Of a stretch of 28,408 bases of DNA, positions 74-19,620 are shown piece after piece; positions within the stretch are counted from its first letter, which is position 1; every line of letters starts with the position of its first letter. This stretch comes from a virus: the IMG/VR virus record IMGVR_UViG_3300027631_000101, positions 1 to 28,408 of that record. The stretch is one strand, 5' to 3'. The position numbers were made by a program, and so were the translations under genes. Below the pieces are notes generated by a model that did not search any database, was not told the origin of the DNA, and was given only the letters and a program-made list of their open reading frames with translations.

Positions 74-2581
74 ATGAATTTTTATACCAATGTTACTCGT
101 CATCGAAATCAAATTTTAGTTCGCGGAATATCTGACGGCAAACCTGTCAAGTTTTCTGTGAAATACAAACCTTATTTATTCGTTCAAGCAAGTGCACAAA
201 CTGAACATAAGAACCTCAAAGGTGAATATGTCGGCAAGATGCAGTTCGATTCCATGTCTGAAACACGAGAGTTTCTGCAAAGTTATGAGAACGTGGCAGG
301 CATGAACATCTACGGCCTCTCTGATTGGCCTTACATGTATATTTATGACAAGTATAAAGGTGAGATCAAGTATGATCCTGCCCTTGTTTCAGTTTGTTCG
401 ATCGATATCGAGACCAGCATCGAAGGCGGCTTTCCTGATATCGAGAAAGCTGACAACGAAATCACAGCGATTACCATCGGCCGCAATGGTAGGAAGACTA
501 CGTTTGGTTGCGGTGAATACAAGGAGCATCAAGACAATGTACAATATTACAAATGCGCAGACGAATCTGCACTCTTACTCGCCTTTCTCGAAGTCTGGAA
601 CGGATCACTCTATTCGCCTGACGTTGTCACGGGCTGGAACATCGAGTTCTTCGATATCCCATATCTTGTCAACAGGATTCGAAAAGTTCTTGGATCTGAT
701 CACGCTGAACGTCTCTCTCCCTGGAAAATGCTCCGTGAATACAAAGTTAACAGCCGTGGACGAGAATGCATTTGCTATGCCCCTATCGGCATCGCAGTCC
801 TTGATTACATCCAGCTTTATCGGAAGTTTACGTACACAGAGCAGGAATCTTACCGACTTGACTACATCGCTCAAGTTGAACTGAACGAAGGTAAGATTGA
901 CTATCGTGACGAAGGTTATACCGACCTCGACGACCTTCGTCTCAGGAACTTCCAACGTTACATCGAATATAACGTTCGTGACGTTGAGATCGTTGAGAGG
1001 CTCGAAGATAAGCTGAAGCTCATCGAGTTGGTCTATGCTTTGGCTTATGACGCCAAGGTTAACTATGAAGATACTATGACAACCGTGAAACAGTGGGACG
1101 TGATCACTCACAACTACCTACTCGATCGAAACATCGTAGTGCCTCTCAACGATAAGAATAAACCCGACCGAGCCTTCGTAGGCGGATATGTCAAAGATCC
1201 AAAGGTCGGTATGAGTAAATGGGTTGTGTCGTTCGATTTGAATTCCCTTTATCCCCACCTTATCATGCAGTACAACATCTCCCCCGAGACGCTTGTTACT
1301 CGCTTAAAAGATAAGGTGTCAATCGACGACCTACTTGTTGGTGGCGCTAGTCAGTTCGGTGGCTATCTTGATAAAACGAACTGTACTATCGCCGCCAACC
1401 TTTGTATCTATACGAAAGAAAAACGAGGCTTCTTGCCATCGATTATGGATCGTATGTATGACGATCGTACTCGTTACAAAAAGCAGATGATCGAGTGCAA
1501 GAAGGAATACGAGAAGACGAAAGATCCTCGTCTTGTCAAGGAAATTGCACGACTCGATAACATGCAGATGGCCAAGAAGATTCAGCTGAACTCGGCTTAT
1601 GGTGCTCTCGGTAATAAGTGGTTCCGTTGGTTTGACGTGAACAATGCCGAAGCCATCACCACATCTGGTCAGCTCAGCATTCGTTGGATCGAGAACAAGC
1701 TCAACGACTATCTCAACAAACTGTTGAAGACAGAAAACTTTGACTATGTGTTGGCTTCCGATACCGACTCGGTTTATGTGACTCTCGAATACCTCGTCAA
1801 GAATGTATTCGGTGATGATGTGCCTGAAACCAAGAAGGTGATTCAGTATATCGACAAGATCTGTAAGGAACGTATCGAACCATTCATCGATCGTTCTTAT
1901 CAAGAACTTGCCGAATATATGCACGCATATGCTCAGAAGATGCAAATGAAGCGAGAGAACATCGCAGACAAAGGCATCTGGAAAGCCAAGAAGATGTACA
2001 TTCTCAATGTATGGAACTCTGAAGGCGTTGAGTATGAGAAGCCGAAGTTGAAGATGACAGGCATCGAAGCGGTTCGATCCTCGACTCCGACTGCATGCCG
2101 TGATGCCATTAAGAAGTCTCTCGAGATTATCATGGCTGGATCTGAATCGGATCTTCAGAAGTATGTCGCCAACTTCAAGGAAAAGTTTTCATCTCTTGGG
2201 TTTGACGACGTGGCTTTCACTCGCGGTGTCAAGGACATCGAGAAATATTGGGTAGGTGGTAGGTTCCAAAGCCAGACTCCTATCCATGTTCGTGGTTCTG
2301 TGGTCTACAACGAAATGTTGAAGAAGAAGAAACTTACAAATAAATATCAATCCATTACCAGCGGTGAGAAAATTAAGTTTGCATACTTGAAAAACCCAAA
2401 TCCGACACAAGACTATGTTATCTCGTGTCCGAATGGTCTACCGAAAGAATTGAAGATGGAAACTTACATCGACTATGCGGTGCAGTTCGAGAAAGGCTAT
2501 CTCAGCCCTATCGAGTCGATCACTAACACCATGGGATGGCAAGCAGAAAAACGCGCAACACTGGAGGATTGGTTCTCATGA
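74..2581 (+). CDS. 43: T4-type family B DNA polymerase (gp43)
   Basis: This is the replicative DNA polymerase with 3'-5' proofreading, 835 aa from the ATG at 74. Exonuclease motifs are DIETS (D111 and E113, almost the T4 positions 112/114), GWNIEFFDIPYL and YNVRDVEIVE. Polymerase motifs are DLNSLYPHLI (A), KIQLNSAYGALGNKWF (B) and ASDTDSVYV (C). An upstream ATG at 50 is in frame, but GGAG at 65-68 is correctly placed only for the ATG at 74, and the T4 residue numbering agrees. It is shorter than T4 gp43 (about 900 aa) but has every catalytic block. It leads the replication block 43-uvsX-41 and has an early-type promoter just upstream. Function is certain by family; the start is inferred. Confidence 0.97.
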   Translation: MNFYTNVTRHRNQILVRGISDGKPVKFSVKYKPYLFVQASAQTEHKNLKGEYVGKMQFDSMSETREFLQSYENVAGMNIYGLSDWPYMYIYDKYKGEIKYDPALVSVCSIDIETSIEGGFPDIEKADNEITAITIGRNGRKTTFGCGEYKEHQDNVQYYKCADESALLLAFLEVWNGSLYSPDVVTGWNIEFFDIPYLVNRIRKVLGSDHAERLSPWKMLREYKVNSRGRECICYAPIGIAVLDYIQLYRKFTYTEQESYRLDYIAQVELNEGKIDYRDEGYTDLDDLRLRNFQRYIEYNVRDVEIVERLEDKLKLIELVYALAYDAKVNYEDTMTTVKQWDVITHNYLLDRNIVVPLNDKNKPDRAFVGGYVKDPKVGMSKWVVSFDLNSLYPHLIMQYNISPETLVTRLKDKVSIDDLLVGGASQFGGYLDKTNCTIAANLCIYTKEKRGFLPSIMDRMYDDRTRYKKQMIECKKEYEKTKDPRLVKEIARLDNMQMAKKIQLNSAYGALGNKWFRWFDVNNAEAITTSGQLSIRWIENKLNDYLNKLLKTENFDYVLASDTDSVYVTLEYLVKNVFGDDVPETKKVIQYIDKICKERIEPFIDRSYQELAEYMHAYAQKMQMKRENIADKGIWKAKKMYILNVWNSEGVEYEKPKLKMTGIEAVRSSTPTACRDAIKKSLEIIMAGSESDLQKYVANFKEKFSSLGFDDVAFTRGVKDIEKYWVGGRFQSQTPIHVRGSVVYNEMLKKKKLTNKYQSITSGEKIKFAYLKNPNPTQDYVISCPNGLPKELKMETYIDYAVQFEKGYLSPIESITNTMGWQAEKRATLEDWFS

Positions 2582-2778
2582 TGGTAACAGAATACAATGG
2601 CAATGGAAAATATGCAAATCGCCGAGCTGAATTGCATAAGCAAATCTATGATGATTATTACTATGTCAAGTTTTTTGAAAATGATGAGCATATTGAAACG
2701 CGAGTTTTAAAAGACAAAACATTACGATACGCAGAAGATTGCGCTGAAAACTGGACAATAGGAGTTATTAATGGCTAA
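2578..2778 (+). CDS. Small hypothetical phage protein
   Basis: A 66-aa protein rich in charged and tyrosine residues, with no recognised domain or membrane segment. Two adjacent ATGs (2578 and 2581) overlap the polymerase stop codon. GGAGG at 2562-2566 serves either one, so translational coupling to gp43 is likely. An in-frame ATG at 2536 would read deep inside the polymerase gene and is less likely. The gene is more AT-rich than its neighbours. Function unknown; the tight packing between polymerase and uvsX suggests an early small accessory protein. Confidence 0.7.
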   Translation: MMVTEYNGNGKYANRRAELHKQIYDDYYYVKFFENDEHIETRVLKDKTLRYAEDCAENWTIGVING

Positions 2779-3001
2779 ACTAGATATAGACTTAGACTTT
2801 GATTTTGGTTTCACGACTTCATCTGAAGAAGAAATCAAACAAGAAGGCAACGATAAGGCACGTTACATGTACGATGCCATCATGCCTTTACTTACAAACT
2901 TAAAGAAAGATGCAGACAAAAACCCGATCATCAACTGGCCTAATCGTGCCGAGAAAATCGATCTCTTCATTACTAAATTAAATAAGATTCTCGCATCTTA
3001 A
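2771..3001 (+). CDS. Small acidic conserved phage protein
   Basis: A 76-aa protein with an unusual aspartate-rich start (MAKLDIDLDFDFGF) followed by a helical charged region. It overlaps the previous gene by 8 bases and has AGGAG (2759-2763) upstream of its ATG, so it is co-translated with it. Proteins with this kind of acidic N-terminus occur beside uvsX in other T4-like phages (from memory). An acidic peptide at this position could contact a replication or recombination protein, but nothing in the sequence shows that. Function unknown. Confidence 0.75.
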   Translation: MAKLDIDLDFDFGFTTSSEEEIKQEGNDKARYMYDAIMPLLTNLKKDADKNPIINWPNRAEKIDLFITKLNKILAS

Positions 3002-3004
3002 TGG

Positions 3005-3033
3005 TGTACAAATAAAGATATATCGTATATACT
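3005..3033 (+). promoter_or_regulatory. Early-type promoter for uvsX
   Basis: TGTACA (3005-3010), a 17-bp spacer and TATACT (3028-3033) lie in the gap just before uvsX. The predicted start near 3040 leaves the uvsX SD (AGGAG, 3048-3052) inside the RNA. It is one of the best members of the promoter family described in the findings. Confidence 0.65.
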
Positions 3034-3057
3034 GGGACAATCAGACAAGGAGAAGTT

Positions 3058-4128
3058 ATGTCAGACCTATTAAATAAATTGCGTAAGAATACCACAATCA
3101 AGGATTCAGATATTTTGTCTGATTCCAAGTTCTTCAATGCCAAGGACATGATCCGCACGACAGTGCCTGCAATCAACATTGCATTGAGTGGTAAAATTAA
3201 CGGTGGCTTCGTTCCTGGTCTGACCATTTGGGCAGGTCCATCGAAGCACTTCAAAACTTCTTTTAGTCTTCTCATGGCGAAAGCATACATGGACACGTAT
3301 CCAGATGCAGTCATGCTTTTCTATGACTCAGAATTTGGTACTCCTCAATCTTACTTCGACTCGTTCGGCATCGACACATCTCGAGTTCTCCATACTCCCA
3401 TCACAGATGTCGAACAGTTGAAGTTTGATATTATGCATCAGTTCGAAGAGATCAAGCGCGGCGATCGTGTCATCGTTGTGATCGACTCGGTCGGCAATCT
3501 CGCTTCGAAGAAGGAAGTCGAAGATGCACTCAAGCAGAACTCAGCCGCCGATATGACTCGCGCAAAACAGTTGAAGTCGCTCTTCCGCATGGTTACGCCC
3601 CATCTTAACCTCAAGGATATTCCTCTGATCGTGGTCAACCACACTTATCAGACTCAAGAGATGTACTCGAAGGCCGTCGTATCTGGTGGCACTGGCATCT
3701 ATTATTCGGCTGACAACATCTTCATTCTTGGTCGTCAACAAGAGAAAGATGGCAAGGAAGTCACTGGCTACAACTTCATCATCAACGTTGAGAAGTCTCG
3801 CTTTGTAAAAGAAAAGAGCAAGATTCCAATCGAAGTATCATGGGAAGAAGGCATCAGCAAATGGTCTGGTCTACTTGACATGGCTCTCGAGTCTGGTCAC
3901 GTGATCAAGCCAAAGGTTGGTTGGTTCCAAAAGGTTGATATGACTACTGGAGAAATCTCCGATAAGTCGTATCGCCTGAATGATACTTATAACTTCAACT
4001 TCTGGCATCCTATTCTACAGTGTCCTAAGTTCAATGAGTTCGTTGAAAAGAAGTACGCTGCAGCAAACGGTGCCATTATGCAAAGTGAAGACGAAGTGGC
4101 AGATGTCTATGAGATGGAGGATGAATGA
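3058..4128 (+). CDS. uvsX: UvsX RecA-like recombinase
   Basis: This is the T4 UvsX homologue, 356 aa. It is an ATP-dependent strand-exchange protein for recombination-dependent replication and repair. Walker A is GPSKHFKTS (K66, T67), very close to the T4 form. Walker B is VIVVIDSV (D143). The acidic C-terminal tail (EDEVADVYEMEDE) resembles the regulatory acidic tail of RecA-family proteins. Its own promoter (3005-3033) and a good SD, AGGAG at 3048-3052, precede the start. The stop overlaps the gp41 start (ATGA), so recombinase and helicase are translationally coupled. Confidence 0.96.
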   Translation: MSDLLNKLRKNTTIKDSDILSDSKFFNAKDMIRTTVPAINIALSGKINGGFVPGLTIWAGPSKHFKTSFSLLMAKAYMDTYPDAVMLFYDSEFGTPQSYFDSFGIDTSRVLHTPITDVEQLKFDIMHQFEEIKRGDRVIVVIDSVGNLASKKEVEDALKQNSAADMTRAKQLKSLFRMVTPHLNLKDIPLIVVNHTYQTQEMYSKAVVSGGTGIYYSADNIFILGRQQEKDGKEVTGYNFIINVEKSRFVKEKSKIPIEVSWEEGISKWSGLLDMALESGHVIKPKVGWFQKVDMTTGEISDKSYRLNDTYNFNFWHPILQCPKFNEFVEKKYAAANGAIMQSEDEVADVYEMEDE

Positions 4129-5540
4129 GAATTGAACACATCATATTTGGAAATCTTATTGAAAACGAGGATTATGCCCGCAAGGTCATTCCATTCCTCA
4201 AAGAAGAATACTTTACAGACACTGTAGATCGTAAGATCTTCTCTATCATTCATGAATACGTGGGAAAGTATAACAACTTTCCTACAAAATCTGCTGTCGA
4301 GATTGATCTTAACGAGGTAGGTGGTCTGTCTGACGATCAGTTCAAGCTTGCCAAAGAAGTTGTCTCTGGACTTGACAAGTCTGAAGATCGTGATGTGGCA
4401 TGGCTCGTAGATAATACCGAGAAGTTTTGTAAAGACAAGGCATTGTATAATGCTTTGATGAAGTCTATTCAGTTGGTAGACGACAGCAAGAAGGATAGCA
4501 TCTCAGTCGGTGCTATTCCTCAGATCTTGACTGACGCACTCGGTGTTTCTTTCGATAGCCATATCGGCCACGACTTCTTGAATGATGCAGCAGAACGCTA
4601 TGAGTTCTATCATCGTAAGGAAGTTCGTATCGGTTTCGACCTTGATTTCTTTAACAAGATTACTCAAGGCGGTCTGCCTCGTAAGACACTGAACATTGCT
4701 CTTGCTGGTACTGGTGTCGGTAAGTCATTGTTCATGTGTCATAACGCGGCTCAAAACTTGATGTCGGGTCAGAATGTCTTGTATATCACTTTGGAAATGG
4801 CAGAAGAAAGAATCGCCGAGCGTATCGATGCCAATCTCCTCGGTGTAACACTCGACGATCTGAAGGATCTACCTCAAGCCATCTACTACAAGTTGGTAGG
4901 CAAAGTCAAGGAACGAGCAAAAGGCAAGCTCATTGTGAAGGAGTATCCAACAGCATGCGCAGGATCCGCAAACTTTCGACATCTCTTGAACGAATTGAAG
5001 ATCAAGAAGAACTTTATCCCCGACATTATTTACATCGATTATCTGAACATCTGTGCGTCGTCGAGGATCAAGCCGGGATCGAACGTGAACTCGTACACCT
5101 ACATCAAGGCGATCGCCGAAGAACTTCGCGGCCTCGCCGTCGAGTTCAACGTGCCAATCGTTTCTGCTACTCAGACTAATCGTTCTGGTTTCAGCAACTC
5201 TGATGTCGGTCTCGAAGATACATCTGAATCGTTCGGTCTGCCAGCAACGGCCGACTTTATGTTTGCCTTGATTACGAGTGAAGAGCTACGTCAACTCAAT
5301 CAGATCATGGTAAAGCAGTTGAAGAATCGTTACGGCGATCCTTCAGTACACAAGCGATTCGTGATTGGTGTCGACTATTCGAAAATGCGTCTGTATAATG
5401 TAGAAGCATCTGCTCAAGAAGATCTTGTGCAAGACGAAGATCGACCAGTCTTCGACAACTCCGCCTCTGGTTATCGACTCGAGAATGAATCGAAACCAGT
5501 CAGTAAGTTTGAGAAAATTAAATTTGCAGGTTTCAAATGA
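4125..5540 (+). CDS. 41: DnaB-type replicative helicase (gp41)
   Basis: A 471-aa protein, close to the 475 aa of T4 gp41. It is the hexameric 5'-3' helicase that works with primase gp61 on the lagging strand. The N-terminal ~150 residues form the helical domain. The RecA-like core starts with Walker A AGTGVGKS (about 194-201), then LYITLEMAEERIAERI and the Walker B strand DIIYIDYLNIC. It starts inside the uvsX stop (ATGA), and its own stop overlaps the next gene. The DNA coding the core at about 5041-5160 is markedly richer in G+C (68 of 120 bases) than the next 60 bases (26 of 60), which hints at a recombined patch. Confidence 0.95.
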   Translation: MRIEHIIFGNLIENEDYARKVIPFLKEEYFTDTVDRKIFSIIHEYVGKYNNFPTKSAVEIDLNEVGGLSDDQFKLAKEVVSGLDKSEDRDVAWLVDNTEKFCKDKALYNALMKSIQLVDDSKKDSISVGAIPQILTDALGVSFDSHIGHDFLNDAAERYEFYHRKEVRIGFDLDFFNKITQGGLPRKTLNIALAGTGVGKSLFMCHNAAQNLMSGQNVLYITLEMAEERIAERIDANLLGVTLDDLKDLPQAIYYKLVGKVKERAKGKLIVKEYPTACAGSANFRHLLNELKIKKNFIPDIIYIDYLNICASSRIKPGSNVNSYTYIKAIAEELRGLAVEFNVPIVSATQTNRSGFSNSDVGLEDTSESFGLPATADFMFALITSEELRQLNQIMVKQLKNRYGDPSVHKRFVIGVDYSKMRLYNVEASAQEDLVQDEDRPVFDNSASGYRLENESKPVSKFEKIKFAGFK

Positions 5541-5719
5541 TCGATAATCTCAGACGTGACTGGATAGTCAATACAGTCAAAAATCCTAAATACAGATGGA
5601 AGTGCCAGATACTAAAGAATACTTGGTGGATGGTCGAGGAAGGCAATGAGCCTAATTGGTTTCATCGCAAGATGCAAGAACTTTGTTTTGGTTTTAAATG
5701 GGAGAAGATTGATGGTTAA
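5537..5719 (+). CDS. Small hypothetical protein, tryptophan-rich
   Basis: A 60-aa basic protein with six tryptophans, including a WW pair (TWWMVEEG). Its start overlaps the gp41 stop (ATGA), so it is probably translated by coupling. No domain is recognised. The short aromatic, basic sequence could fold as a small nucleic-acid or protein binding unit, but that is speculation. The neighbouring replication genes suggest early expression. Confidence 0.65.
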   Translation: MIDNLRRDWIVNTVKNPKYRWKCQILKNTWWMVEEGNEPNWFHRKMQELCFGFKWEKIDG

Positions 5720-5954
5720 CTATAAGATCGTAAATACTGGAAAGATCGTCGATGTCGGTGGCGGATTTGGCGAAAACAGCGGTGATATCCTTGAGACCAA
5801 GACAGATCAGGTTGTAATCAAGGGTGTGCGTATGTCCAAAGTCAAAGAAATGGTTCGACATCTGAACTTTGGCGGTGGGTTTGACGGCCACACACCAGCA
5901 TTTTTTTTAGCCGAACGCGAAAAAACTTTAGAATTGACTGTAGAACTTGTATAA
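5712..5954 (+). CDS. Small hypothetical phage protein
   Basis: An 80-aa protein starting at the ATG at 5712, preceded by GGGAGA (5700-5705). A longer in-frame reading from 5646 lies inside the previous gene and lacks this SD. It has a glycine-rich segment (VDVGGGFGENSGD), a beta-like middle and LNFGGGFDGH. No domain is recognised. It overlaps the preceding gene by 8 bases. Its stop codon lies within the late-promoter motif at 5950-5957, so it closes the first replication operon. Confidence 0.7.
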   Translation: MVNYKIVNTGKIVDVGGGFGENSGDILETKTDQVVIKGVRMSKVKEMVRHLNFGGGFDGHTPAFFLAEREKTLELTVELV

Positions 5955-5957
5955 ATA
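5950..5957 (+). promoter_or_regulatory. T4-type late promoter TATAAATA
   Basis: An exact TATAAATA, the T4 late promoter core, overlaps the stop codon of the preceding gene. The expected start is near 5963. The only thing downstream before a strong terminator is the RNA candidate at about 5994-6102. Confidence 0.5.
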
Positions 5958-5959
5958 GA

Positions 5960-5987
5960 TGTACACTATGTGGTGCGTGGATATACA
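5960..5987 (+). promoter_or_regulatory. Early-type promoter for a possible small RNA
   Basis: TGTACA (5960-5965), a 16-bp spacer and TATACA (5982-5987) match the early promoter family. The site directly follows the late promoter core. The -10 is overlapped by a perfect inverted repeat, ACAGTT-TT-AACTGT (5985-5998), which could be an operator. The predicted start is near 5994. Confidence 0.45.
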
Positions 5988-5993
5988 GTTTTA

Positions 5994-6102
5994 ACTGTGT
6001 AAGAGGCAAGTGTCTTAATTGACGACTGGAATAGGCAGGGTCACAGGTGGGGTTCCTCCTGCTACACGCATGATGGGCGGCTTTCGGGTCGCCCATTTTT
6101 TT
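5994..6102 (+). ncRNA. Candidate intergenic small RNA
   Basis: A non-coding interval of about 110 nt is bounded by tandem late and early-type promoters and a strong intrinsic terminator. Three hairpins can be drawn. First, AGTGTC (6009-6014) pairs with GAC-g-ACT (6021-6027). Second, GCAGG (6035-6039) pairs with CCTGC (6058-6062), with AGG/CCT pairing inside. Third comes the terminator. The second hairpin carries UUCCUCCU, complementary to Shine-Dalgarno sequences. The longest + strand frame from an ATG here is eight codons, and no tRNA fold is seen. It may be an sRNA or simply a leader/terminator region. Confidence 0.4.
6072..6102 (+). terminator. Intrinsic terminator
   Basis: GATGGGCGGC and GTCGCCCATT form a nearly perfect GC-rich stem with a small UUCG-containing loop, followed by a run of seven T. 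It ends transcription from the replication operon and from the promoters at 5950-5987. Confidence 0.9.
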
Positions 6103-6115
6103 GCTCTTTTTTTGA

Positions 6116-6170
6116 AATAAACATGTACATTTTATCAAAACTTTGGTAAGGTGGACCTATAATCAAGAAG
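6116..6170 (+). repeat. Duplicated promoter/leader, copy 1
   Basis: This block contains AATAAACATGTACATTTTAT, GGTAAGGTGGA, CTATAAT and AAGAAGGA. The same blocks, in the same order and spacing, recur at 6434-6489. Each copy precedes a different small gene. Confidence 0.75.
6124..6152 (+). promoter_or_regulatory. Early-type promoter, leader copy 1
   Basis: TGTACA (6124-6129), a 17-bp spacer and TAAGGT (6147-6152) are followed by GGACCTATAAT and an AAGAAGGA SD. The block is repeated almost exactly at 6442-6490. It drives the gene at 6181. Confidence 0.5.
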
Positions 6171-6180
6171 GAAAAAACAC

Positions 6181-6432
6181 ATGTACTCCATTCAATATTT
6201 CGATCGTCTTAACAACAACCTCGACACCTCTTCGCCAAAATTCCCTACCATTCAACTTCTCGTCGATTTTATCAATCAAAATCCCGACCTCGAATATTCT
6301 ATCGTCCTCTACAAAAACTTCTTCGTCGCACCAACCGTCGACGATATTATCCTTAACCAAAAACCTCGTCCAAAATTTGTCAAACTTATGACTAAAGTTT
6401 CTACCACTCTCGACAATTACGTATCTTCATAA
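6181..6432 (+). CDS. Small hypothetical protein
   Basis: An 83-aa protein of unknown function with mixed hydrophobic and polar composition and no membrane segment or motif. It begins 10 bases after an AAGAAGGA SD and behind its own early-type promoter, which picks this frame over the overlapping ones on both strands (6143-6391 on +, 6163-6360 on -). Its codons favour C at third positions (CTC, ACC, GAC), unlike the AT-rich flanks. That asymmetry also creates the open antisense frames. Early expression is inferred from the promoter. Confidence 0.7.
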   Translation: MYSIQYFDRLNNNLDTSSPKFPTIQLLVDFINQNPDLEYSIVLYKNFFVAPTVDDIILNQKPRPKFVKLMTKVSTTLDNYVSS

Positions 6433-6433
6433 A

Positions 6434-6489
6434 AATAAACATGTACATTTTATTGCAGATTTGGTAAGGTGGATCTATAATGAAGAAGG
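6434..6489 (+). repeat. Duplicated promoter/leader, copy 2
   Basis: Second copy of the leader at 6116-6170, with a few changes in the spacer (TTGCAGA for CAAAACT) and at single sites. In both copies AAGAAGGA acts as the SD, and this settles the start of the small gene that follows at 6498. Confidence 0.75.
6442..6470 (+). promoter_or_regulatory. Early-type promoter, leader copy 2
   Basis: TGTACA (6442-6447), a 17-bp spacer and TAAGGT (6465-6470). The predicted start near 6477 leaves the SD (AAGAAGGA, 6483-6490) in the RNA. It drives the small gene at 6498 and the metallophosphoesterase. Confidence 0.5.
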
Positions 6490-6497
6490 ATATGATG

Positions 6498-6593
6498 ATG
6501 TCTGCTGAAGAACAAGAATTCTGGGAAGGTTATGAAGCTTGGCTCGATGAGCAAGCCGATCGTGCTGCATACGAACGTATGGTGGAAATGTGA
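6498..6593 (+). CDS. Very small acidic protein
   Basis: A 31-aa acidic peptide beginning MSAEEQEFWEGYEAWLDEQ, probably one helix. Four ATGs are in frame (6480, 6492, 6495, 6498). The SD copied from the duplicated leader lies at 6483-6490, so 6498 is best placed; starting at 6480 would give 37 aa. Its stop overlaps the GTG start of the metallophosphoesterase, which implies translational coupling. Function unknown. Confidence 0.55.
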   Translation: MSAEEQEFWEGYEAWLDEQADRAAYERMVEM

Positions 6594-7228
6594 CTCGATT
6601 TGTAAACAGATTCGTTATCTCTGACCATCATCTTGGTCATACGAACTCGTGGGAAAAGTTCAAACTATCTGACGGCAGTCCGCTGCGTCCGTTCACCTCG
6701 ACTGAAGAGATGAACGAGACCATGATTGAACGCCACAATGCCAAAGTGAAAGAGCAGGACACTGTCTACTTTCTTGGCGACGTAGTAATCAATAAGAAGT
6801 ATCTCGAACTGGTAAAGCGTATGAACGGCCGTAAGATCCTGATTCGTGGTAACCATGACATCTTTAAGGATGAAGACTATCGTGCAGTTGGCTTTGAGCA
6901 GATGCACGGTGTTCGTGTGTTTGTGGATAAGTTCATTCTGAGCCATATCCCACTGCACCCTGACTGTGTGACAGAACGTTTCAAGGTCAACGTCCATGGA
7001 CATCTTCATGCGAATGAGGTCAAAATGCCGTGGGGAGTTAATGCTGATAGAAACGAAATCATATATGCTGACTTCCCGGATCCTCGCTATCTGTGTGTCT
7101 CGGTTGAGCATACGAACTATGAGCCTCTGCACTTCGATGAAGTTCAAGCTCGCATCGATAAGCGTTGGGCAGATACTGGTTACACCGGTCCTGCCAAGGC
7201 TTGGGGTAATGGAAGTGGACCTGGTTGA
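6590..7228 (+). CDS. Calcineurin-like metallophosphoesterase
   Basis: A 212-aa metal-dependent phosphoesterase. The five family motifs appear in order: SDHHLGH (D12, H14), LGDVV (G63, D64), RGNHD (88-90), SH (H119) and HGHLH (H136, H138, H140). Such enzymes hydrolyse phosphomono- or phosphodiesters, and phage members are often annotated as phosphatases or nucleases; the substrate here is unknown. The start is a GTG that overlaps the stop of the preceding peptide, with GGTGGA upstream. It overlaps the next gene by one base (TGATG). It is early by its promoter at 6442. Confidence 0.88.
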   Translation: MTRFVNRFVISDHHLGHTNSWEKFKLSDGSPLRPFTSTEEMNETMIERHNAKVKEQDTVYFLGDVVINKKYLELVKRMNGRKILIRGNHDIFKDEDYRAVGFEQMHGVRVFVDKFILSHIPLHPDCVTERFKVNVHGHLHANEVKMPWGVNADRNEIIYADFPDPRYLCVSVEHTNYEPLHFDEVQARIDKRWADTGYTGPAKAWGNGSGPG

Positions 7229-7821: not shown

Positions 7822-7832
7822 AGGAATATATT

Positions 7833-8630
7833 ATGAAAAATGTTACTAAGGTTGCTGTTCTCGCTGGTCTGATGGCCACGACTGCTGCATGTACTCGTAT
7901 CGAAACAGGTGAAGTTGGTGTTCGTCGTTCGTTCGACAAGACTATTGAAACCACTGAGTTGATGCCTGGTTCTGTTAATCAGACCATCTTCGGTGATGTC
8001 ATGACATTCCCAACGAAGGACGTTCAGGTTGATGTGTCTGACTTGACTCCATTGGCTTCGGACAACTCGACTGTTGCCGACTTCGATATGGCAGTGATCT
8101 ACTCGATCAATCCAGGTTCTGTCGCAGAACTCTACATCGAGAAGAACCGTGGTTTTCACGCTGACACCGAAGAAGGTGATACTCTTCTGATGTACAACTA
8201 CATCCGTCAGCTTGGTCGTAATGCTGCCTATAAGGTTGCTCGTCGTTACGAGTCATTGAAGATGGCTGATAACCGTGCTGAGATGGAACAGTTGATTCGT
8301 CAGGAAGTTGTAGCACAGCTCGCTTCTGAGAAGCTTGACGGTGCAATTTCAATCTCACAGGTTCTTGTTCGTCAGGTAAAGCCTGCTGCAAACATCGTAG
8401 CCTCGGCTAATGCGCTTGTTCAAGCTCAGAATGCTGAGAAGCAGAAGCAAGTCGAAGTTCGTACTGCTAAGCTTGAAGCACAACGTATTGCTGCTCTGAA
8501 TGCCAACGCTGGTGCAACGAAGTACATGGAAGCAACTGCTATCGTTACTATTGCCGAAGCTGTCAAGGACGGTAAGGTCAACACGATCGTTATCCCTTAC
8601 GACTTCAAGGGTATCGTCAACGTAAAGTAA
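7833..8630 (+). CDS. SPFH/band 7 lipoprotein (prohibitin/HflK-like)
   Basis: A 265-aa protein from the ATG at 7833 (AAAGGAAT upstream). Residues 1-20 form a lipoprotein signal with a lipobox-like TAAC at C20. The rest is a band 7 (SPFH) fold: an N-terminal beta domain (GEVGVRRSF, PTKDVQVDVSD), a helix starting ALVQAQNAEKQKQ of stomatin/prohibitin type, and a hydrophobic end (VNTIVIPYDF). SPFH proteins form ring scaffolds at membranes; HflK/HflC restrain the FtsH protease. A role in shielding phage proteins or remodelling the host envelope is inferred. The threonine at -3 of the lipobox is slightly unusual. Confidence 0.85.
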   Translation: MKNVTKVAVLAGLMATTAACTRIETGEVGVRRSFDKTIETTELMPGSVNQTIFGDVMTFPTKDVQVDVSDLTPLASDNSTVADFDMAVIYSINPGSVAELYIEKNRGFHADTEEGDTLLMYNYIRQLGRNAAYKVARRYESLKMADNRAEMEQLIRQEVVAQLASEKLDGAISISQVLVRQVKPAANIVASANALVQAQNAEKQKQVEVRTAKLEAQRIAALNANAGATKYMEATAIVTIAEAVKDGKVNTIVIPYDFKGIVNVK

Positions 8631-9284: not shown

Positions 9285-9518
9285 ATGATTGACCATACAC
9301 CAACTTATTCCGCCTTTCGTACACCACTCGCAATGGCTGGCATCAATTTTCACGACCATCATTTGGTCGGTCTGACATGGCCATATATAAACTGTAAAGG
9401 CAAACAGTATCACGTCACGATGCTCGATCAAGGTTGGGTGTGTGACTGTCCTGGTTTTAACTTCTATAATAAATGTAAGCACATTACACAAGTGCACGAA
9501 AAGGTGATAGCAGAATGA
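9285..9518 (+). CDS. SWIM-type zinc-finger protein
   Basis: A 77-aa protein that is little more than a SWIM zinc finger: WVCDCPGFNFYNKCKHI gives C53-x-C55 and C64-x-H66, the CxC...CxH pattern. SWIM domains bind nucleic acids or proteins and usually sit in larger proteins such as helicases or transposases; here one stands alone. It is preceded by AAGGTGA (SD or -10). Its stop overlaps the next gene (ATGA), another zinc-binding protein. Target unknown. Confidence 0.8.
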   Translation: MIDHTPTYSAFRTPLAMAGINFHDHHLVGLTWPYINCKGKQYHVTMLDQGWVCDCPGFNFYNKCKHITQVHEKVIAE

Positions 9519-9910
9519 TTGTTCAGAACGCAGTAAATTGTTTGTCATGTGGAGATCTCATCATCTCTAAACATCGTCATGACTTTGTAAATTGCACTTG
9601 CGGTGCTGTATGGGTAGATGGCGGTCAGGACTACCTGCGTCGTGTAGGTGACTTTGAAAACGCCGTCGACTTGTCTTGGTCACTGCCAGACAAGTTATAT
9701 TTTGATTGTGCTGATGCTGCTGGCCTTGCTATGGATAGCGGTCGTAATACTAAAGGCATCGCCAATGCAGTGATGCGTACTCTTCGTGAAGCTGGTCGAG
9801 TGATCGCCGAAGGTGAACAAAGAATTCTAGCTCATAATCCTCGTATGGATGAGATTATGGTCGAAGAAGCCGATGGCACCATCAATCGTTATAAGAAAGT
9901 TGTAGAATGA
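9515..9910 (+). CDS. Zinc-ribbon protein (DUF7695-like)
   Basis: A 131-aa protein. Residues 9-45 form a zinc ribbon, CLSCG...CTCG (C9, C12, C27, C29), followed by VDGGQDYLRRVG. This ribbon plus the DGGxDYLRR signature recurs in small phage and bacterial proteins (DUF7695-like, from memory). The C-terminal ~70 residues are helical (NAVMRTLREAGRVIAEGEQ) and have no recognised match. Start and stop both overlap neighbours by ATGA, so it sits between the SWIM protein and the ketoacyl synthase in one coupled operon. Confidence 0.75.
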   Translation: MIVQNAVNCLSCGDLIISKHRHDFVNCTCGAVWVDGGQDYLRRVGDFENAVDLSWSLPDKLYFDCADAAGLAMDSGRNTKGIANAVMRTLREAGRVIAEGEQRILAHNPRMDEIMVEEADGTINRYKKVVE

Positions 9911-11016
9911 AAGAAGCATGCATCGTCGGCTTTGGAATGATCGATGCGTTAGGTGATAATCCCATCGATTGTTGGGAGAATATGCTTAATGATCGAGACT
10001 TCCATAAACCTATCGATCCTCATGTTCATGAAGGCCACAATCTTAAAGTTAAGTACGGGTTTTATCCTGAAATTGATATCGATGAAGAATTACAACCTCG
10101 AGCAGTAGCTTATGGTATGCATGCGGTTGAGCAAGCTTTACACATGGCAAATTTGCCGCATTCATCGAATGTAGGTGTCATCTTCTCGACTCTTTTAGGC
10201 GGCAACTCGACAAAAGCAAAGTTAGATGCCGAAGGTCGAAAGATGAAACCAAAACAGATCCTTCGCTCAACGATGGATTATCTCTGCAGTCAAATCTCAA
10301 TTAAGTATGGATATACTGGTATCAATACCATGGTGTATTCTGCTTGTGCTACAGGTTTGGTAAGCATCGAATATGCTATGCGAATGCTCGATGAGTATGA
10401 CTATGTGATCGTAGGCGGTTCTGATGCTGGCGTAAATCACATGGATCTCTACTTCTTCTCGATTATCAAGGCGATCGGTTCGAAGTCGATGCCATTCGAT
10501 AAGAATCGCGACGGTTTTATTATGGGTGAAGGTGCAGGTTGCATCATCCTTCAGTCGAGAGAAAAGGCCGAAGCGATGGGTTCGAAGGTATATGCTCGCA
10601 TCACTGGAGTTTCGAATGCTTCAGATGCACACGATCCGACTGCACCTTCTGGAGCCGGAGCTCGTCTTTGCTTGGAGAAGCTGGATCTCGAAGGAGTCGA
10701 CTCAGTCAACTCGCATGGAACCAGCACTCCACTCGGAGATGTGGTAGAGTATGACGTGGTTCGCGAGTTTACTGATGCACCGATCTATTCCAATAAAGGA
10801 AAAATTGGACATACTTTCGCTGCAGCAGGTGTACTTGAAACAATTTACAGTGTACTGTCTATTCAGAACGGTGTGATTCCTCATACCGCTGGTTGTCAAG
10901 ACACTGATATGGATGTGGTGATGGAGAACATCGAGACAGATGTCAAGAAAGTTCTTGTCAATTCATTTGGATTTGGTGGTAAGTGTTGTTCAATTATTGT
11001 TGAAAAGGAAAAGTAA
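9907..11016 (+). CDS. Beta-ketoacyl-ACP synthase (FabF-like)
   Basis: A 369-aa thiolase-fold condensing enzyme of the KAS I/II type, which extends acyl-ACP with malonyl-ACP. All catalytic parts are present: nucleophile C147 in SACATG, H270 in SHGTSTPLGD, K297 and H302 in SNKGKIGHTF, and the FGFGG loop near 355. The FabF marker FDKNRDGFIMGEGAG is also intact. It is about 40 residues shorter than typical FabF (~412 aa), with the shortfall spread out rather than a deletion. No ACP or other fatty-acid gene is near, so it would use host acyl-ACP. It could change membrane lipids or make a specific acyl product. Its start overlaps the zinc-ribbon gene. Confidence 0.93.
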   Translation: MKEACIVGFGMIDALGDNPIDCWENMLNDRDFHKPIDPHVHEGHNLKVKYGFYPEIDIDEELQPRAVAYGMHAVEQALHMANLPHSSNVGVIFSTLLGGNSTKAKLDAEGRKMKPKQILRSTMDYLCSQISIKYGYTGINTMVYSACATGLVSIEYAMRMLDEYDYVIVGGSDAGVNHMDLYFFSIIKAIGSKSMPFDKNRDGFIMGEGAGCIILQSREKAEAMGSKVYARITGVSNASDAHDPTAPSGAGARLCLEKLDLEGVDSVNSHGTSTPLGDVVEYDVVREFTDAPIYSNKGKIGHTFAAAGVLETIYSVLSIQNGVIPHTAGCQDTDMDVVMENIETDVKKVLVNSFGFGGKCCSIIVEKEK

Positions 11017-11017
11017 A

Positions 11018-11263
11018 ATGTCTTCTGGATATACTGTAGAACTCGATTGGGAAACTGTAGACCACGTCGTGGTCGGTCAGCTGCGTAATACATGGGAAGC
11101 TTTAAAGGGCAATCTCGGCAATGGCGACTGGGTTTTTGTCTGGGGTGATCAAGAAGCCGATGATGCCGAGATCCAAAAGCACATCGACGCGCTCGAACTT
11201 CTCCTCAAGTGGTACTCCACTCCCGATGAGCTGGTAAAAATGGGACTCAAAGAAGGTGCCTAA
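11018..11263 (+). CDS. Small conserved T4-like phage protein
   Basis: An 81-aa acidic, helical protein from the ATG at 11018, with AAGGA upstream; an in-frame ATG at 10940 lies inside the synthase gene. The sequence resembles small T4-like phage proteins starting with a YTVELDWxTxD pattern (from memory). The last part is a long helix (AEIQKHIDALELLLKWY). It overlaps the next gene by 8 bases. Function unknown. Confidence 0.75.
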   Translation: MSSGYTVELDWETVDHVVVGQLRNTWEALKGNLGNGDWVFVWGDQEADDAEIQKHIDALELLLKWYSTPDELVKMGLKEGA

Positions 11264-11642
11264 GTATCTTGTAGAGACAATCGACTTCTTTCGCATGCGA
11301 TATGTCGTGGAATGCGAGAGCGCAGAACATGCCAAAGACGTCGTGACGATGAAAGAAGCTGAAGAGTTCAGTCAATTATATCTTGACGAGACTATCACTT
11401 CTACTCGCGTGATTGATGATGCAGAGTATCTTCGCATCTTCGACGAAGATAATGACTATCTCAAAGAGTGGTCAGAAGAAGAGAAATTTAAGTATGTGCA
11501 CGAAGTAGTCTATGATACTCCAAATCCAAGTATGAAAGAACTCGATCCGGATCAACGGGATTGGGAATATGATGGTTGTGGAGTAAAAGTCTGGAAAGGC
11601 ACGATGCAACGTTATGAGGTAGAAAACGATGGAACAGAATAA
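11256..11642 (+). CDS. Hypothetical protein, DpnD/PcfM-like start
   Basis: A 128-aa acidic protein with a GTG start. The N-terminal YLVETIDFFRMRYVVECESAEHAKDVV resembles the small DpnD/PcfM-like domain: a beta-strand followed by an EAxSxEHAxD helix. The rest is acidic and unrecognised. It overlaps the previous gene by 8 bases and the next by 14, so it is part of the same coupled string. The family match is tentative, and no activity is known for such domains. Confidence 0.7.
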   Translation: MPKYLVETIDFFRMRYVVECESAEHAKDVVTMKEAEEFSQLYLDETITSTRVIDDAEYLRIFDEDNDYLKEWSEEEKFKYVHEVVYDTPNPSMKELDPDQRDWEYDGCGVKVWKGTMQRYEVENDGTE

Positions 11643-11892
11643 AGTATATACAATTAAGCTTATGTCGGGCGAAGAACTCATTGCTCGTGTCAAGCAAGAA
11701 GGTGGTGTCACCGAACTGTTGAAGCCTCGTACAGTTGGTATGGGACCTCAGGGTTTTGCTATGATGCCATGGATGATGTCAGCTCCTGATAACAACGTCG
11801 TAATCTCTGACACAGTCATTGTCGGTGCTACTGAAACGAGTGCACAGGTTGCTACACAATATCTGAAACAAGTAACAGGAATACAAGTCTAA
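11629..11892 (+). CDS. Sm-like (LSm/Hfq-fold) phage protein
   Basis: An 87-aa protein whose first half reads like an Sm1 motif: YTIKLMSGEELIARVKQ, then LLKPRTVGM with a bent-strand pattern. LSm proteins form rings that bind RNA. Related small proteins occur in T4-like phages (from memory). The second half (MMPWMMSAPDNN) is a methionine-rich loop and then a strand and helix. Ring formation and RNA binding are inferred, not shown. Its start lies within the previous gene, and its stop overlaps the next start (TAATG). Confidence 0.6.
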   Translation: MEQNKVYTIKLMSGEELIARVKQEGGVTELLKPRTVGMGPQGFAMMPWMMSAPDNNVVISDTVIVGATETSAQVATQYLKQVTGIQV

Positions 11893-12308
11893 TGTTAGAA
11901 TGTTTGATTATGGGCGATTCGATCGCCGTTGGAACGAAGATGTTTGCTCCGAAAGAATGTGTATCATATTCGAAGGGCGGTTGGAATACTTGGCAATGGA
12001 ACAAGAAGTGGGGTAAAACTCCGCTTGAAGCCAAGACAATCGTAATCAGCCTCGGAACAAACGATCATAGCGGCGTTGATACGAAAAAAGAGTTGACAAA
12101 AATTAGAACTCGTGTTAAGGTAGGCAATGTAGTATGGATTATGCCTCCTTGTAACAAAGGCTTTTGTAAACCTAAGGTCAACGCCATAGTAAAAAGCATT
12201 GCCGTAAGCTACGGAGATCGTATCATTGCTACATCGTATGTTCAACCTGATGATATCCATCCATCGTGGCGTGGATATAAAGATCTCGTAAAGAAAGCTG
12301 GAATATGA
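11892..12308 (+). CDS. SGNH-fold hydrolase
   Basis: A 138-aa compact SGNH/GDSL hydrolase. The four blocks are present: GDSIA (S10 nucleophile), SKGG (G29/G30), GTND (N57) and DDIHP (D120, H123). These enzymes cleave esters or acetyl groups from lipids, sugars or peptidoglycan. There is no signal peptide, so it should act in the cytoplasm or be carried by the virion. At 138 aa it is smaller than typical family members (~200 aa) but keeps the triad. Its start and stop overlap both neighbours. Confidence 0.82.
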   Translation: MLECLIMGDSIAVGTKMFAPKECVSYSKGGWNTWQWNKKWGKTPLEAKTIVISLGTNDHSGVDTKKELTKIRTRVKVGNVVWIMPPCNKGFCKPKVNAIVKSIAVSYGDRIIATSYVQPDDIHPSWRGYKDLVKKAGI

Positions 12309-16736: not shown

Positions 16737-18893
16737 ATGGAAGATAAGAAGAATAAACCGGTTGATACGAAGCAGTTAAAAAAGCCAACCGGCACGTCTG
16801 TAACTGGCAAACCACTTGATGGCATCGAGATCCGTCCTCAGCTCAAAGGTCTCGGCAATCGCCAGCACAACGAGGATACCGTAGTCCTAACTGACACTCT
16901 CGCTGAGAAGAAAGCACTGACACTCGTTCAGCGCCAACGCAGAGCGCGTGCTCTTCGAGCTAAAGAGCCGAAGATGCAGAGAGCCAAAGAAGTTGCTCAA
17001 CACAAACTCGCCTCGGACGAAAAGCTAAAGGCTCGAGCAATTGTCAAAGCAAGAAACATGGTCAAGATGAGGTTTGCAGCTCGGAAGGGAACTCCTTATA
17101 CCGAGCTCACCACATCTGAAAAAATTCAAGTCGATAAGGTAGTCGATAAGAAGGTCAAGCTGATCAGAAGATTAGCTGCTCGCCTTCTACCTGCTCTTCG
17201 TAAAGCAGAAGTCAATCGTCTCGCTTCATTCCAATCGGGATCAAAAATCCAGCACGCGACTGCTGCCCCGGTCAACGAAGAATTCAATACAATCGTAGAG
17301 AGTCTTGACAATAAGACTTCTATGCAACTCGTTGACATTATCAACGATTCTATCGATGCTCTCAACGAGAATAATAACTCGATGGGTATCACGCTGAAGA
17401 GACTGCTAAGCGCTGTCCTTCCAGAAGACGTAGCAACTTCTACACTTATGAAAAAAGCCGAGAAGACCGGCATACCGTTCTCGACCCTCAGAGAGGTGTT
17501 CGAGCGCGGTTCTTTTGCGTGGGAAGACGACGGCAAAACTACGCAAGAACAGTTCTCATTCTCAAGAGTGAATAGCTACATTGCCAAAGGCAGAGCGTGG
17601 ACACTCGATGCAGATCTTCGCGAAGAGAAGGAAGTCAACGACAAGCTCGATAAAATGTTCGAATCCGCTTATCATACTGGCTTGAGTGCTTCGACTGCTA
17701 AGGCACGCGAATCTCACTGGAAAAAGATGGAAAAGTATTCTGATCGAGATCCACGTGCATATCAAGATGCGCCAGGTGACAAGGCAGCTCGTAAGAAAAA
17801 TATGCCTCAATCTGTACATACGAAGAAGTATCATGCGATGTACGGCGAAGAGATCGAGCAGCTGGTCAATGAAGCCTCTGACGGTCTTGCTGCAAAGGCC
17901 AGCAAATCAGGTGTTTCCTTATCTACTCTGAAGAAAGTGTATGCTCGCGGTGTTGCTGCATGGAACAGCGGTCACCGTCCAGGAACTACACCACAACAGT
18001 GGGGTATGGCTCGCGTAAACTCTTACATCACAAAGGGCAAAGGCACTTATCACGGCGCTGATAAGGATCTGCATGAAGATGATGTAAATGAAGGCCTATG
18101 GGCTAACATTCATGCTAAGCGTAAGAGAATTAAAGCTGGATCTGGCGAACGTATGCGTAAGCCTGGATCGAAGGGCGCTCCGACTGCCGCGGGTTTTAGA
18201 TCAGCACAAGAAGCAGTCGAAGATCAAGTAGGCAATCAGATTGCTGATACAGGAAGACATGGTAAAGTAAGATATGTCGGTGTAAGAACTGCTGCTCATA
18301 AAGAAACTGGTACACAAGAGCGTCAAGAAGTTCAGTATATTAAGCGTCATAAGATGCATACGAAAAGAGAGACTGACGCCGATCCGCAACAGATTCGTAT
18401 CGCTCAGGATCAGATCAAAAAGAAAGTGATCGACGAGTCGAACAACACGCCATACGTCAAGCCTTTCACAGAAAAAGGTAGTACAGAACAACGTGGTTGG
18501 AAAGCTTCGAACAAGCATGGCAAGGTAAAGTACTTTGGCATGGACTTCAAGGCTTCTGCACATAAGCATGCTGGAATCAATGAAGATACATCAGCAGATC
18601 GCGAAGTTGGTACGAAATCGCTCGTCAAGAAGTATCAAAAGGAAACTCCTGGACAGAAAAAAGCAGATCTGAACGAGTCGTTCAATATCGAGTTCGCCGC
18701 TGGAATTGGTGTAGGTCTGACTGCTAACGAATGTGGTATCTTCATCAAGCCAGGGTTCGAGATGCATCCTGATGTCGTAGAAGAAGATATCGAAAGAAGA
18801 GGCGACTTCAAGATGGTTAAAGTTCGCACTCCAAAAGGATATGTTTGGAAAAAAGTTCGCCGCGAAGTTGATATCGAGAGGGACGCAGAATGA
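16737..18893 (+). CDS. Large basic repeat protein, probable internal virion protein (DUF5824-like)
   Basis: A 718-aa highly basic protein. Residues about 55-165 are a helical lysine/arginine-rich region (RRARALRAKEPKMQRAKEVA) typical of virion proteins of T4-like phages (from memory). Two copies of a DUF5824-like domain follow at about 238-285 and 384-434, each ending RVNSYI-KG. Another short repeat, HGKV(R/K)Y(V/F)G, is at 508 and 594. The C-terminus is acidic, then basic. LAE and LNES motifs could be sites for the prohead protease. It is expressed late, behind TATAAATA and the SD-hiding hairpin. Packaging in the head is inferred from charge, repeats and neighbours. Confidence 0.8.
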   Translation: MEDKKNKPVDTKQLKKPTGTSVTGKPLDGIEIRPQLKGLGNRQHNEDTVVLTDTLAEKKALTLVQRQRRARALRAKEPKMQRAKEVAQHKLASDEKLKARAIVKARNMVKMRFAARKGTPYTELTTSEKIQVDKVVDKKVKLIRRLAARLLPALRKAEVNRLASFQSGSKIQHATAAPVNEEFNTIVESLDNKTSMQLVDIINDSIDALNENNNSMGITLKRLLSAVLPEDVATSTLMKKAEKTGIPFSTLREVFERGSFAWEDDGKTTQEQFSFSRVNSYIAKGRAWTLDADLREEKEVNDKLDKMFESAYHTGLSASTAKARESHWKKMEKYSDRDPRAYQDAPGDKAARKKNMPQSVHTKKYHAMYGEEIEQLVNEASDGLAAKASKSGVSLSTLKKVYARGVAAWNSGHRPGTTPQQWGMARVNSYITKGKGTYHGADKDLHEDDVNEGLWANIHAKRKRIKAGSGERMRKPGSKGAPTAAGFRSAQEAVEDQVGNQIADTGRHGKVRYVGVRTAAHKETGTQERQEVQYIKRHKMHTKRETDADPQQIRIAQDQIKKKVIDESNNTPYVKPFTEKGSTEQRGWKASNKHGKVKYFGMDFKASAHKHAGINEDTSADREVGTKSLVKKYQKETPGQKKADLNESFNIEFAAGIGVGLTANECGIFIKPGFEMHPDVVEEDIERRGDFKMVKVRTPKGYVWKKVRREVDIERDAE

Positions 18894-19183
18894 TCGGATT
18901 TAAGGAATTCATCACTGAGCGTGGCGAAGATTCGAAAGGTCACTTCATCGCCACCGAGAAGGGTGCAGGTATGACAGCGAAAGGTGTAAAAGCCTATCGT
19001 GCCAAGAATCCTGGATCAAAGCTTCAGACAGCTGTCACTGGCAAAGTAAAGCCTGGATCTAAAGATGCAGGTAGACGTAAGTCTTTCTGCGCTCGTATGA
19101 GTGGAGTCAAAGGTCCGATGAAAGATGAAAAAGGTAGACCGACTCGTAAAGCAATGTCATTAAGAAGATGGAAGTGTAACTAA
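18890..19183 (+). CDS. DUF6321-like small basic protein with capsid-targeting-like N-terminus
   Basis: A 97-aa, very basic protein. GAGMTAKGVKAYRAKNPGSK and SFCARMSGVKGPMKDEKGRP are the signature of DUF6321, a small family common in phages (from memory). It starts MIGFKEFITERGED, which fits the capsid-targeting pattern of T4 internal proteins and has an ITE cleavage-like site. The basic core would suit DNA binding inside the head. It overlaps the preceding gene by ATGA, and its stop adjoins the dps start. Function of the family is not established to my knowledge. Confidence 0.85.
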   Translation: MIGFKEFITERGEDSKGHFIATEKGAGMTAKGVKAYRAKNPGSKLQTAVTGKVKPGSKDAGRRKSFCARMSGVKGPMKDEKGRPTRKAMSLRRWKCN

Positions 19184-19620
19184 TGGAAGAGATTACAAAC
19201 CCTTTAAAGGTCGCGTTTGCAGACACCTATGCACTTTACGTGAAGGCTCAGAACTATCATTGGAATGTCGAAGGACCGATGTTCCCGATGTATCATGAAT
19301 TTTTTGGTAATATCTATGAAGAAGTTGGTGGTGCTATTGATCGTTTTGCCGAAGAGATTCGAGCCCAAAAATCTTATGCTCCGGCATCGTTCGGAAGATT
19401 CAATGAACTATCAACAATTGAAGATGAATCTCTTATTCAGTTACTTCCAATAACCATGGTAACTAATCTTTTCGAAGATAATAATCGAGTTCTTGCTTCT
19501 CTTCAACTTGCAAGAGATGCAGCAGACAAATACAATCAAAACGGTCTTGTTAACTTCCTTGAAGAGAGACTCGATCAGCACAACAAACACGCATGGATGC
19601 TCCGCGCATCGATGAAATAA
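19183..19620 (+). CDS. dps: Dps-family ferritin-like protein
   Basis: A 145-aa four-helix protein of the Dps family, which forms 12-subunit shells that oxidise and store iron and protect DNA. NYHWNVEGPMFPMYHEFF gives H26 and H38, and IDRFAEEIRAQ gives D53 and E57. The spacing (12, 27 and 31 residues from H26) is the same as in E. coli Dps H51/H63/D78/E82, so the ferroxidase site is complete. The lysine-rich N-terminal DNA-binding tail of E. coli Dps is missing. It lies within late virion-type genes, so protection of phage DNA or packaging is possible. Start and stop are tight against its neighbours. Confidence 0.93.
   Translation: MEEITNPLKVAFADTYALYVKAQNYHWNVEGPMFPMYHEFFGNIYEEVGGAIDRFAEEIRAQKSYAPASFGRFNELSTIEDESLIQLLPITMVTNLFEDNNRVLASLQLARDAADKYNQNGLVNFLEERLDQHNKHAWMLRASMK

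Follow-up and report, generated by a model that had tools for sequence, protein, structure and literature searches.

Lipid desaturases of cyanophages were reportedly described by Roitman et al. in 2018 (cited in PMC8224337). These belong to related T4-like phages and, as proposed for the enzyme studied here, modify fatty acids of the host, but they carry out desaturation only and come without a ketosynthase. Phage desaturases are known, and why T4-like phages should act on the fatty acids of their hosts is a question on which the viral β-ketoacyl-ACP synthases (KS) described below bear. The cellular enzymes with which these can be compared, FabF (KAS II) and FabB (KAS I), share with them the fold, the two-domain Pfam architecture, the Cys-His-Lys-His catalytic set, the GFGG loop 1 and the loop-2 Asp, and are ~30% identical over the full length to the KS analysed here; the latter is ~40 residues shorter than FabF.

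Phage genomes bearing a gene annotated as fabF have been reported before. The PMP-D fonsimyophages, T4-like phages of fresh water whose assigned host is SAR11 LD12, encode fabF and a stearoyl-CoA desaturase, together with speH and a 2OG oxygenase (2020 paper; PMC7029224). That paper gives gene names only, whereas the family assignment, phylogeny, active-site analysis and association analysis are presented here. In predicted prophage regions of Rhodobacteraceae, acpP, fabF and fabG are found in the E. coli order (PMC8224337); while also phage-associated, this fabF is not a lone KS of the viral clade, and the acpP-fabF-fabG stretch probably belongs to the host chromosome, where it borders on the prophage. 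The KS described here is a phage lipid auxiliary metabolic gene (AMG), apparently recorded before only under the annotation 'fabF' in SAR11 phages of fresh water, to which we add a well-separated viral clade, a diagnostic signature, its nature as an accessory cassette and a link to desaturases. No description of the clade was found in the literature searched, where absence is not proof, and both the clade and the desaturase association test appear to be new.

The phage genome and its likely host

The stretch of DNA analysed, hereafter the window, belongs to an aquatic T4-like phage; it makes up an IMG/VR record of 28.4 kb (28,408 nucleotides) and encodes a T4-type DNA polymerase, UvsX and a DnaB-like helicase. 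Among isolates, cyanomyoviruses have the polymerase closest to that of the window (~50%). A 129-kb contig (L005/G001) belongs to the same clade as the window and carries a KS that is 95% identical. Like the PMP-D fonsimyophages, this longer relative combines a KS, a desaturase and a speH-type AdoMet decarboxylase, and the PMP-D fonsimyophages may be the same kind of phage as that of the window, a likeness drawn from annotation. Since G001 also encodes a permuted tmRNA of the alphaproteobacterial type (L098 17325-17739; Rfam RF04321, RF01849; tag ANDNDSFADIRLAA), an alphaproteobacterial host is likely.

A complete ketosynthase gene in a phage operon

The sequence-only reading of this locus had proposed a complete β-ketoacyl-ACP synthase within a phage operon, and this is borne out. 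The KS gene occupies window positions 9907-11016 on the + strand (ATG at 9907, stop codon at 11014-11016) and forms an intact open reading frame of 369 aa, in which both halves of the enzyme are recognised by Pfam at scores well above the cut-off of 20.8 bits (PF00109, ketoacyl-synt N, 99.4 bits; PF02801, ketoacyl-synt C, 70.2 bits). Its top PDB matches are solved FabF enzymes (E ~1e-44), and an AlphaFold 2 model (pTM 0.87, pLDDT 79, from a 21-sequence alignment) superimposes on FabF 2rjt with a Z score of 44.6 and an rmsd of 2.7 over 366 residues (VIA-align). With both Pfam domains, the catalytic set and the thiolase fold, the protein is a member of the β-ketoacyl synthase (KAS I/II) superfamily and is of the elongating type. 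It does not, however, reach the curated cut-offs for FabF or FabB. The best NCBIfam model, FabF TIGR03150 (1.6e-68), is matched at 231 bits against an equivalog cut-off of 493.75, that is at under half the required score; the subfamily model NF005589 is also missed (228 vs 387 bits), as is the FabB equivalog NF005935 (158 vs 630 bits), and no PHROG family matched at E values up to 0.01.

The start codon of KS overlaps the stop codon of the upstream gene in an ATGA (9907..9910, +), the arrangement of an operon with possible translational coupling. This upstream gene (9515..9910, +) encodes a small zinc-ribbon-like protein of the DUF7695 type and is preceded by one for a SWIM-like zinc finger protein, which scored just under the cut-off (9285-9518). 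Directly downstream of KS lies a gene for an uncharacterised protein of 81 aa (11018..11263, +). The sequence-only reading had placed KS between small zinc-binding and Sm-like proteins: the zinc-binding-like proteins do stand upstream, but the small Sm-like protein (11629-11892) is encoded three genes downstream and is not adjacent. Two kilobases upstream of KS, the window encodes a lipoprotein-like protein of the SPFH/Band-7 group (7827-8630; PF01145; phrog_200); it was considered as a partner of KS and set aside, proximity being the sole evidence.

The catalytic residues are intact, while the gate tip and most ACP-contact residues differ from FabF

As had been read from the sequence, the catalytic set and the FGFGG loop are complete. 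Cys147 (10345..10347, in SACATG), His270 (10714..10716, in SHGTST), Lys297 (10795..10797, in NKGKIGH) and His302 (10810..10812, in GKIGHT), all on the + strand, align with FabF C163, H303, K335 and H340, and each of the four is kept in 47/47 of the family members checked. In the alignment the FGFGG gating loop (10966..10980, +) corresponds to FabF loop 1, and like the loop-2 Asp, D240, it is conserved throughout the viral family. D265, F400 and G310 are gate residues that have been studied in FabF, where D265 is important for gating (PMC7138838); they are conserved in the viral enzymes as D240, F356 and G277. The KS of the window is an intact elongating enzyme and is probably active. Because the model has low pLDDT at the active-site segments (residues 194-197, 300-302 and 355-358), it cannot reveal the geometry of the site.

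The surroundings of this conserved core differ from those of FabF. Immediately after the FGFGG loop, the viral enzymes have K359-C360 (10981..10986, +) in place of FabF T403-N404, a position at which 18/18 cellular KS have Asn. Most of the FabF residues that contact ACP (K65, R68, K69 and R206) are not retained and are variable in the viral family, whereas the basic pair at 127/128 (R127/K128 in FabF) is broadly retained. Since FabF K65E and K65A/K69A mutants show reduced cross-linking (PMC7138838), the affinity of the viral enzymes for ACP could be weak or different. The acyl-pocket positions I108 and F133 of FabF differ as well, in a region where the alignment is uncertain. Together, the lost ACP-patch lysines and the altered gate tip raise the possibility that the substrate or its carrier may differ from those of FabF.

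A divergent clade of viral ketosynthases

A search of IMG/VR with the window protein returned 34 loci, 32 of them at 85-100% identity, and a profile of the viral family (vKS) extended this to 73 loci on ~70 contigs of up to 333 kb, with identity down to ~39%. A phylogenetic analysis (IQ-TREE) was carried out on 54 sequences, including 32 viral KS, three from Deinococcota, and cellular FabF, FabB, NodE and PKS proteins. A single branch (support 100/100, stem length 1.7 substitutions per site) sets the 32 viral sequences, together with the three from Deinococcota, apart from cellular FabF, FabB, NodE and PKS. The nearest cellular group, though weakly supported as such, is FabB (84/76, both stems being long). 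The comparison with host FabF/FabB that the sequence-only reading had suggested thus places the window KS in the separate vKS clade, a divergent group found almost only in viruses, and not among recently captured host FabF or FabB genes.

The clade has a signature of its own, K-x-K-I-G-H and GFGG-K-C: compared with FabF/FabB, K-C stands for x-N after GFGG, and within the K-x-x-x-GH stretch a Lys (K299) stands for M/A, or, across cellular KS, for M, A, T or V. Further signature residues are D13, S94, Y164, Y166 and Y282, and the 203-220 loop has 11 residues in vKS as opposed to mostly 18-19 in cellular KS. This signature separates true viral KS from the host fabF contamination found in phage databases. 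Probable contamination of this kind was met when 50,697 phage records were searched by tblastn, which yielded only KS matches of <36% identity and no convincing relative in an isolated phage; the matches, from wastewater assemblies and from Acinetobacter and E. coli contigs, resemble FabF/FabB of hosts and were rejected as relatives.

In a phylum search, vKS was present in 3/111 Deinococcota genomes, with scores of 543-566 bits, all the others reaching ≤251; the three genomes also have an ordinary FabF. Their vKS genes (G044:C24, G045:C1 and G039:C147; L105, L107 and L108) occupy three unrelated chromosomal loci, whose gene surroundings gave no clue to a pathway. As these sequences nest inside the viral clade, Deinococcota look like recipients of the gene and were rejected as its donors; the nesting and the unrelated contexts suggest transfer from phage to cell. 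No cellular donor was found: a scan of cellular contigs with the viral profile, which used two short peptide patterns and was not exhaustive, returned one Deinococcales contig only.

The ketosynthase is an accessory cassette maintained by selection

A further record, G151, has a DNA polymerase gene 94% identical in DNA to that of the window and lacks KS. The two are syntenic on both sides of the gene: the nucleotide match ends at window position 9909 and restarts at 11257, small ORFs lie between, and the segment 9911..11256 has no nucleotide match in G151 (L299 9668-10446), which puts the left edge of the cassette at the DUF7695 gene. In two more records, with polymerases ~70% identical, KS is missing at the same place. 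As these three records all lack KS at the same site, the gene is an accessory cassette, and where present it is maintained by selection, dN/dS in the window clade having a median of ~0.09 (range 0.04-0.14, 53 pairs). In one sub-clade a gene for a 361-aa protein with a P-loop-like GEKGSGKT motif lies between the DUF7695 gene and KS (L037; G001 17571-18656), and for this reason the site may be a hot spot. Downstream of KS, the window encodes a small SGNH/GDSL hydrolase-like protein with GDS and GTND motifs that scored just under the Pfam cut-off (11892-12308); as a candidate partner thioesterase linked to KS it was rejected, being present in G151 too.

The absence of KS from a phage as nearly identical as G151 implies that it is dispensable in at least some settings, and many KS matches in 'phage' databases do resemble host contamination. 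One might accordingly regard the gene as a neutral passenger that has no function in infection, whether as a fabF taken from a host or as a contaminant of a viral contig. We consider this highly improbable: KS sits within a T4-like operon with a start/stop overlap, it recurs on ~70 viral contigs under purifying selection, and it belongs to a deep clade of its own and does not group with host FabF, so that both the clade and the selection results contradict such a reading. The E value of ~1e-44 to FabF, the 32 close IMG/VR loci and the low dN/dS likewise place the observation far beyond chance. Inside an undoubted phage genome, under selection and non-core, KS is a phage auxiliary metabolic gene with a predicted effect on the host. 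Nearly identical phages with and without KS occur in nature, which offers a concrete single-gene test.

Desaturases often accompany the ketosynthase, while the rest of the pathway is missing

The sequence-only reading had described KS as standing alone, with no ACP, reductase or dehydratase. The absence of these three is confirmed for the window and its 129-kb relative. Across the family, ACP (PF00550) was absent in 38/39 KS+ records, and neither a FabG-type SDR (PF13561) nor FabA/Z (PF07977) was found in any of the 19 KS+ records tested, which included G000 and G001. With FabG, FabA/Z and usually ACP absent, the remaining enzymes of the pathway must be supplied by the host. As for its isolation, KS is indeed alone locally, in its operon, but not in the wider genome, since the 129-kb relative has a desaturase (G001 109933-110658) and one vKS contig, G034, has an ACP, a desaturase and a ferredoxin.

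To gauge the desaturase link, KS+ records were compared with 49 related T4-like KS- records anchored on polymerase or UvsX; the records behind all the counts that follow lack independence, the L064 group being a single lineage, and many are fragments. A PF00487 desaturase above the cut-off was present in 7/39 KS+ records, one of them G001 from the window clade, vs 1/49 KS- records (Fisher p = 0.02, with non-independent records), and in records of ≥30 kb in 6/24 vs 1/18 (p = 0.21). Ten more KS+ records had desaturase candidates at first look. Among the candidates, those of L064, L071, L079, L083 and L084 are a BLAST-linked desaturase relative that Pfam does not call and that has three His boxes (in L064 HRTLSH, HRMHH and HEYHH). 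Counting any desaturase, part of them proteins below the Pfam threshold, the figures become 18/39 vs 1/49 (Fisher p = 3.5e-7). Desaturases occur in at least seven vKS lineages (the window clade, L047/48, L049/50, L054, L062, the L064 group and L082), while none was found in several vKS lineages represented by long contigs, such as those of 119 kb and 333 kb.

The clearest lipid module among vKS contigs is that of G034 (L135/L136), a 39-kb IMG/VR contig on which vKS has a gene for a ferritin-like acyl-ACP desaturase (PF03405, 177 bits) as its immediate neighbour. We rank it so because the contig also encodes an ACP with a DSL site and a ferredoxin, which could feed the desaturase; it has four 2OG-oxygenase-like genes as well.

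Proposed function of the viral ketosynthase

On balance we favour, with moderate confidence, the view that the viral KS is an ACP-dependent elongating enzyme of the thiolase fold, working as a homodimer, that acts as an AMG and, together with a phage desaturase, shifts the acyl composition of the host in both length and unsaturation. By the established KAS mechanism, an acyl chain would move from acyl-ACP onto Cys147, His270 and His302 with Lys297 would position and decarboxylate malonyl-ACP, and a single two-carbon condensation would yield a 3-ketoacyl-ACP longer by two carbons. ACP, malonyl-ACP and FabG/FabZ/FabI of the host would then complete the cycle, and with the desaturase encoded elsewhere in the same phage genome the outcome would be an altered length and unsaturation of host acyl-ACP or phospholipids during infection, for substrates of some preferred chain length and to the presumed benefit of the phage. 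A change of host membrane lipid chain length had been suggested from the sequence. Altered acyl chains are plausible, and because the same phages encode desaturases elsewhere, and one also an ACP and a ferredoxin, acyl composition is a better guess than length alone. That a dedicated clade exists, under strong selection and with a link to desaturases, points to phages that remodel the fatty acids of infected cells, some of them by two acyl-tailoring steps and not one.

A lone KS would also fit an inhibitor that needs no other pathway enzymes. In E. coli an excess of FabF is lethal and raises malonyl-CoA, and fabD partly rescues the cells (PMC3896788), so that a phage KS made in excess might serve as a dominant-negative tool, titrating host ACP or FabD and thereby unbalancing or stopping host fatty-acid synthesis. 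This seems to us quite improbable, since such a role would not require the whole catalytic set that is kept throughout the family, would leave the association with desaturases unexplained and, given the loss of most of the ACP-binding lysines of FabF, would have to rely on an enzyme ill suited to strong ACP sequestration.

The main alternative to a change in host acyl composition is that KS helps to build an acyl or polyketide-like compound specific to the phage, be it a small molecule, a modified lipid or a decoration. Its partners would be neighbouring 2OG-Fe(II) oxygenases and, in certain phages, the products of aminotransferase or amidinotransferase genes. Five divergent vKS lineages have a gene for a 2OG oxygenase, or for a protein resembling one, directly beside KS, downstream in L047 and L053/L085 and upstream in L054, L064 and L082, and the signature near the gate (K359-C360, K299 and the short 203-220 loop) fits a changed substrate. 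In the window clade, however, the genes adjoining KS are not oxygenases; since aquatic T4-like phages commonly carry 2OG oxygenases, some of this adjacency would be expected as background; genes for a partner ACP, SDR or dehydratase are lacking, the ACP of G034 excepted; and the link to desaturases favours fatty acids. We therefore hold this alternative to be unlikely. An acyl product for signalling or modification, also raised in the sequence-only reading, gains no positive support here, although the recurrent oxygenase neighbours in divergent vKS loci keep that option alive. A further proposal, which we put forward tentatively and regard as doubtful, is that vKS, with its origin or its diversification in viruses, forms a ketosynthase family of distinct function, has a changed gate and ACP interface and an acyl product that cellular FabF/FabB do not make, and moved from phages into Deinococcota chromosomes.

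Other features of vKS contigs

The oxygenase-like neighbours in L054 (7708-9997) and L064 (7864-9980) are tandem proteins of ~200 aa encoded directly upstream of KS, in up to four copies, which display an H-x-D...H...R pattern and have no Pfam match. G034 further encodes a PhyH protein, an AAA-type ATPase and a ThiF-like protein, and represents an unusual virus or a mobile element. Near the divergent vKS of L062, 24 phage tRNA genes are clustered (2459-7107). Further downstream in the window itself, this T4-like phage encodes a Dps/ferritin-like protein (19183-19620; PF00210, 71.7 bits) and a 641-aa protein (19655-21580) with internal repeats of a 'EQIDELSKGTMGRYINKA'-like motif.
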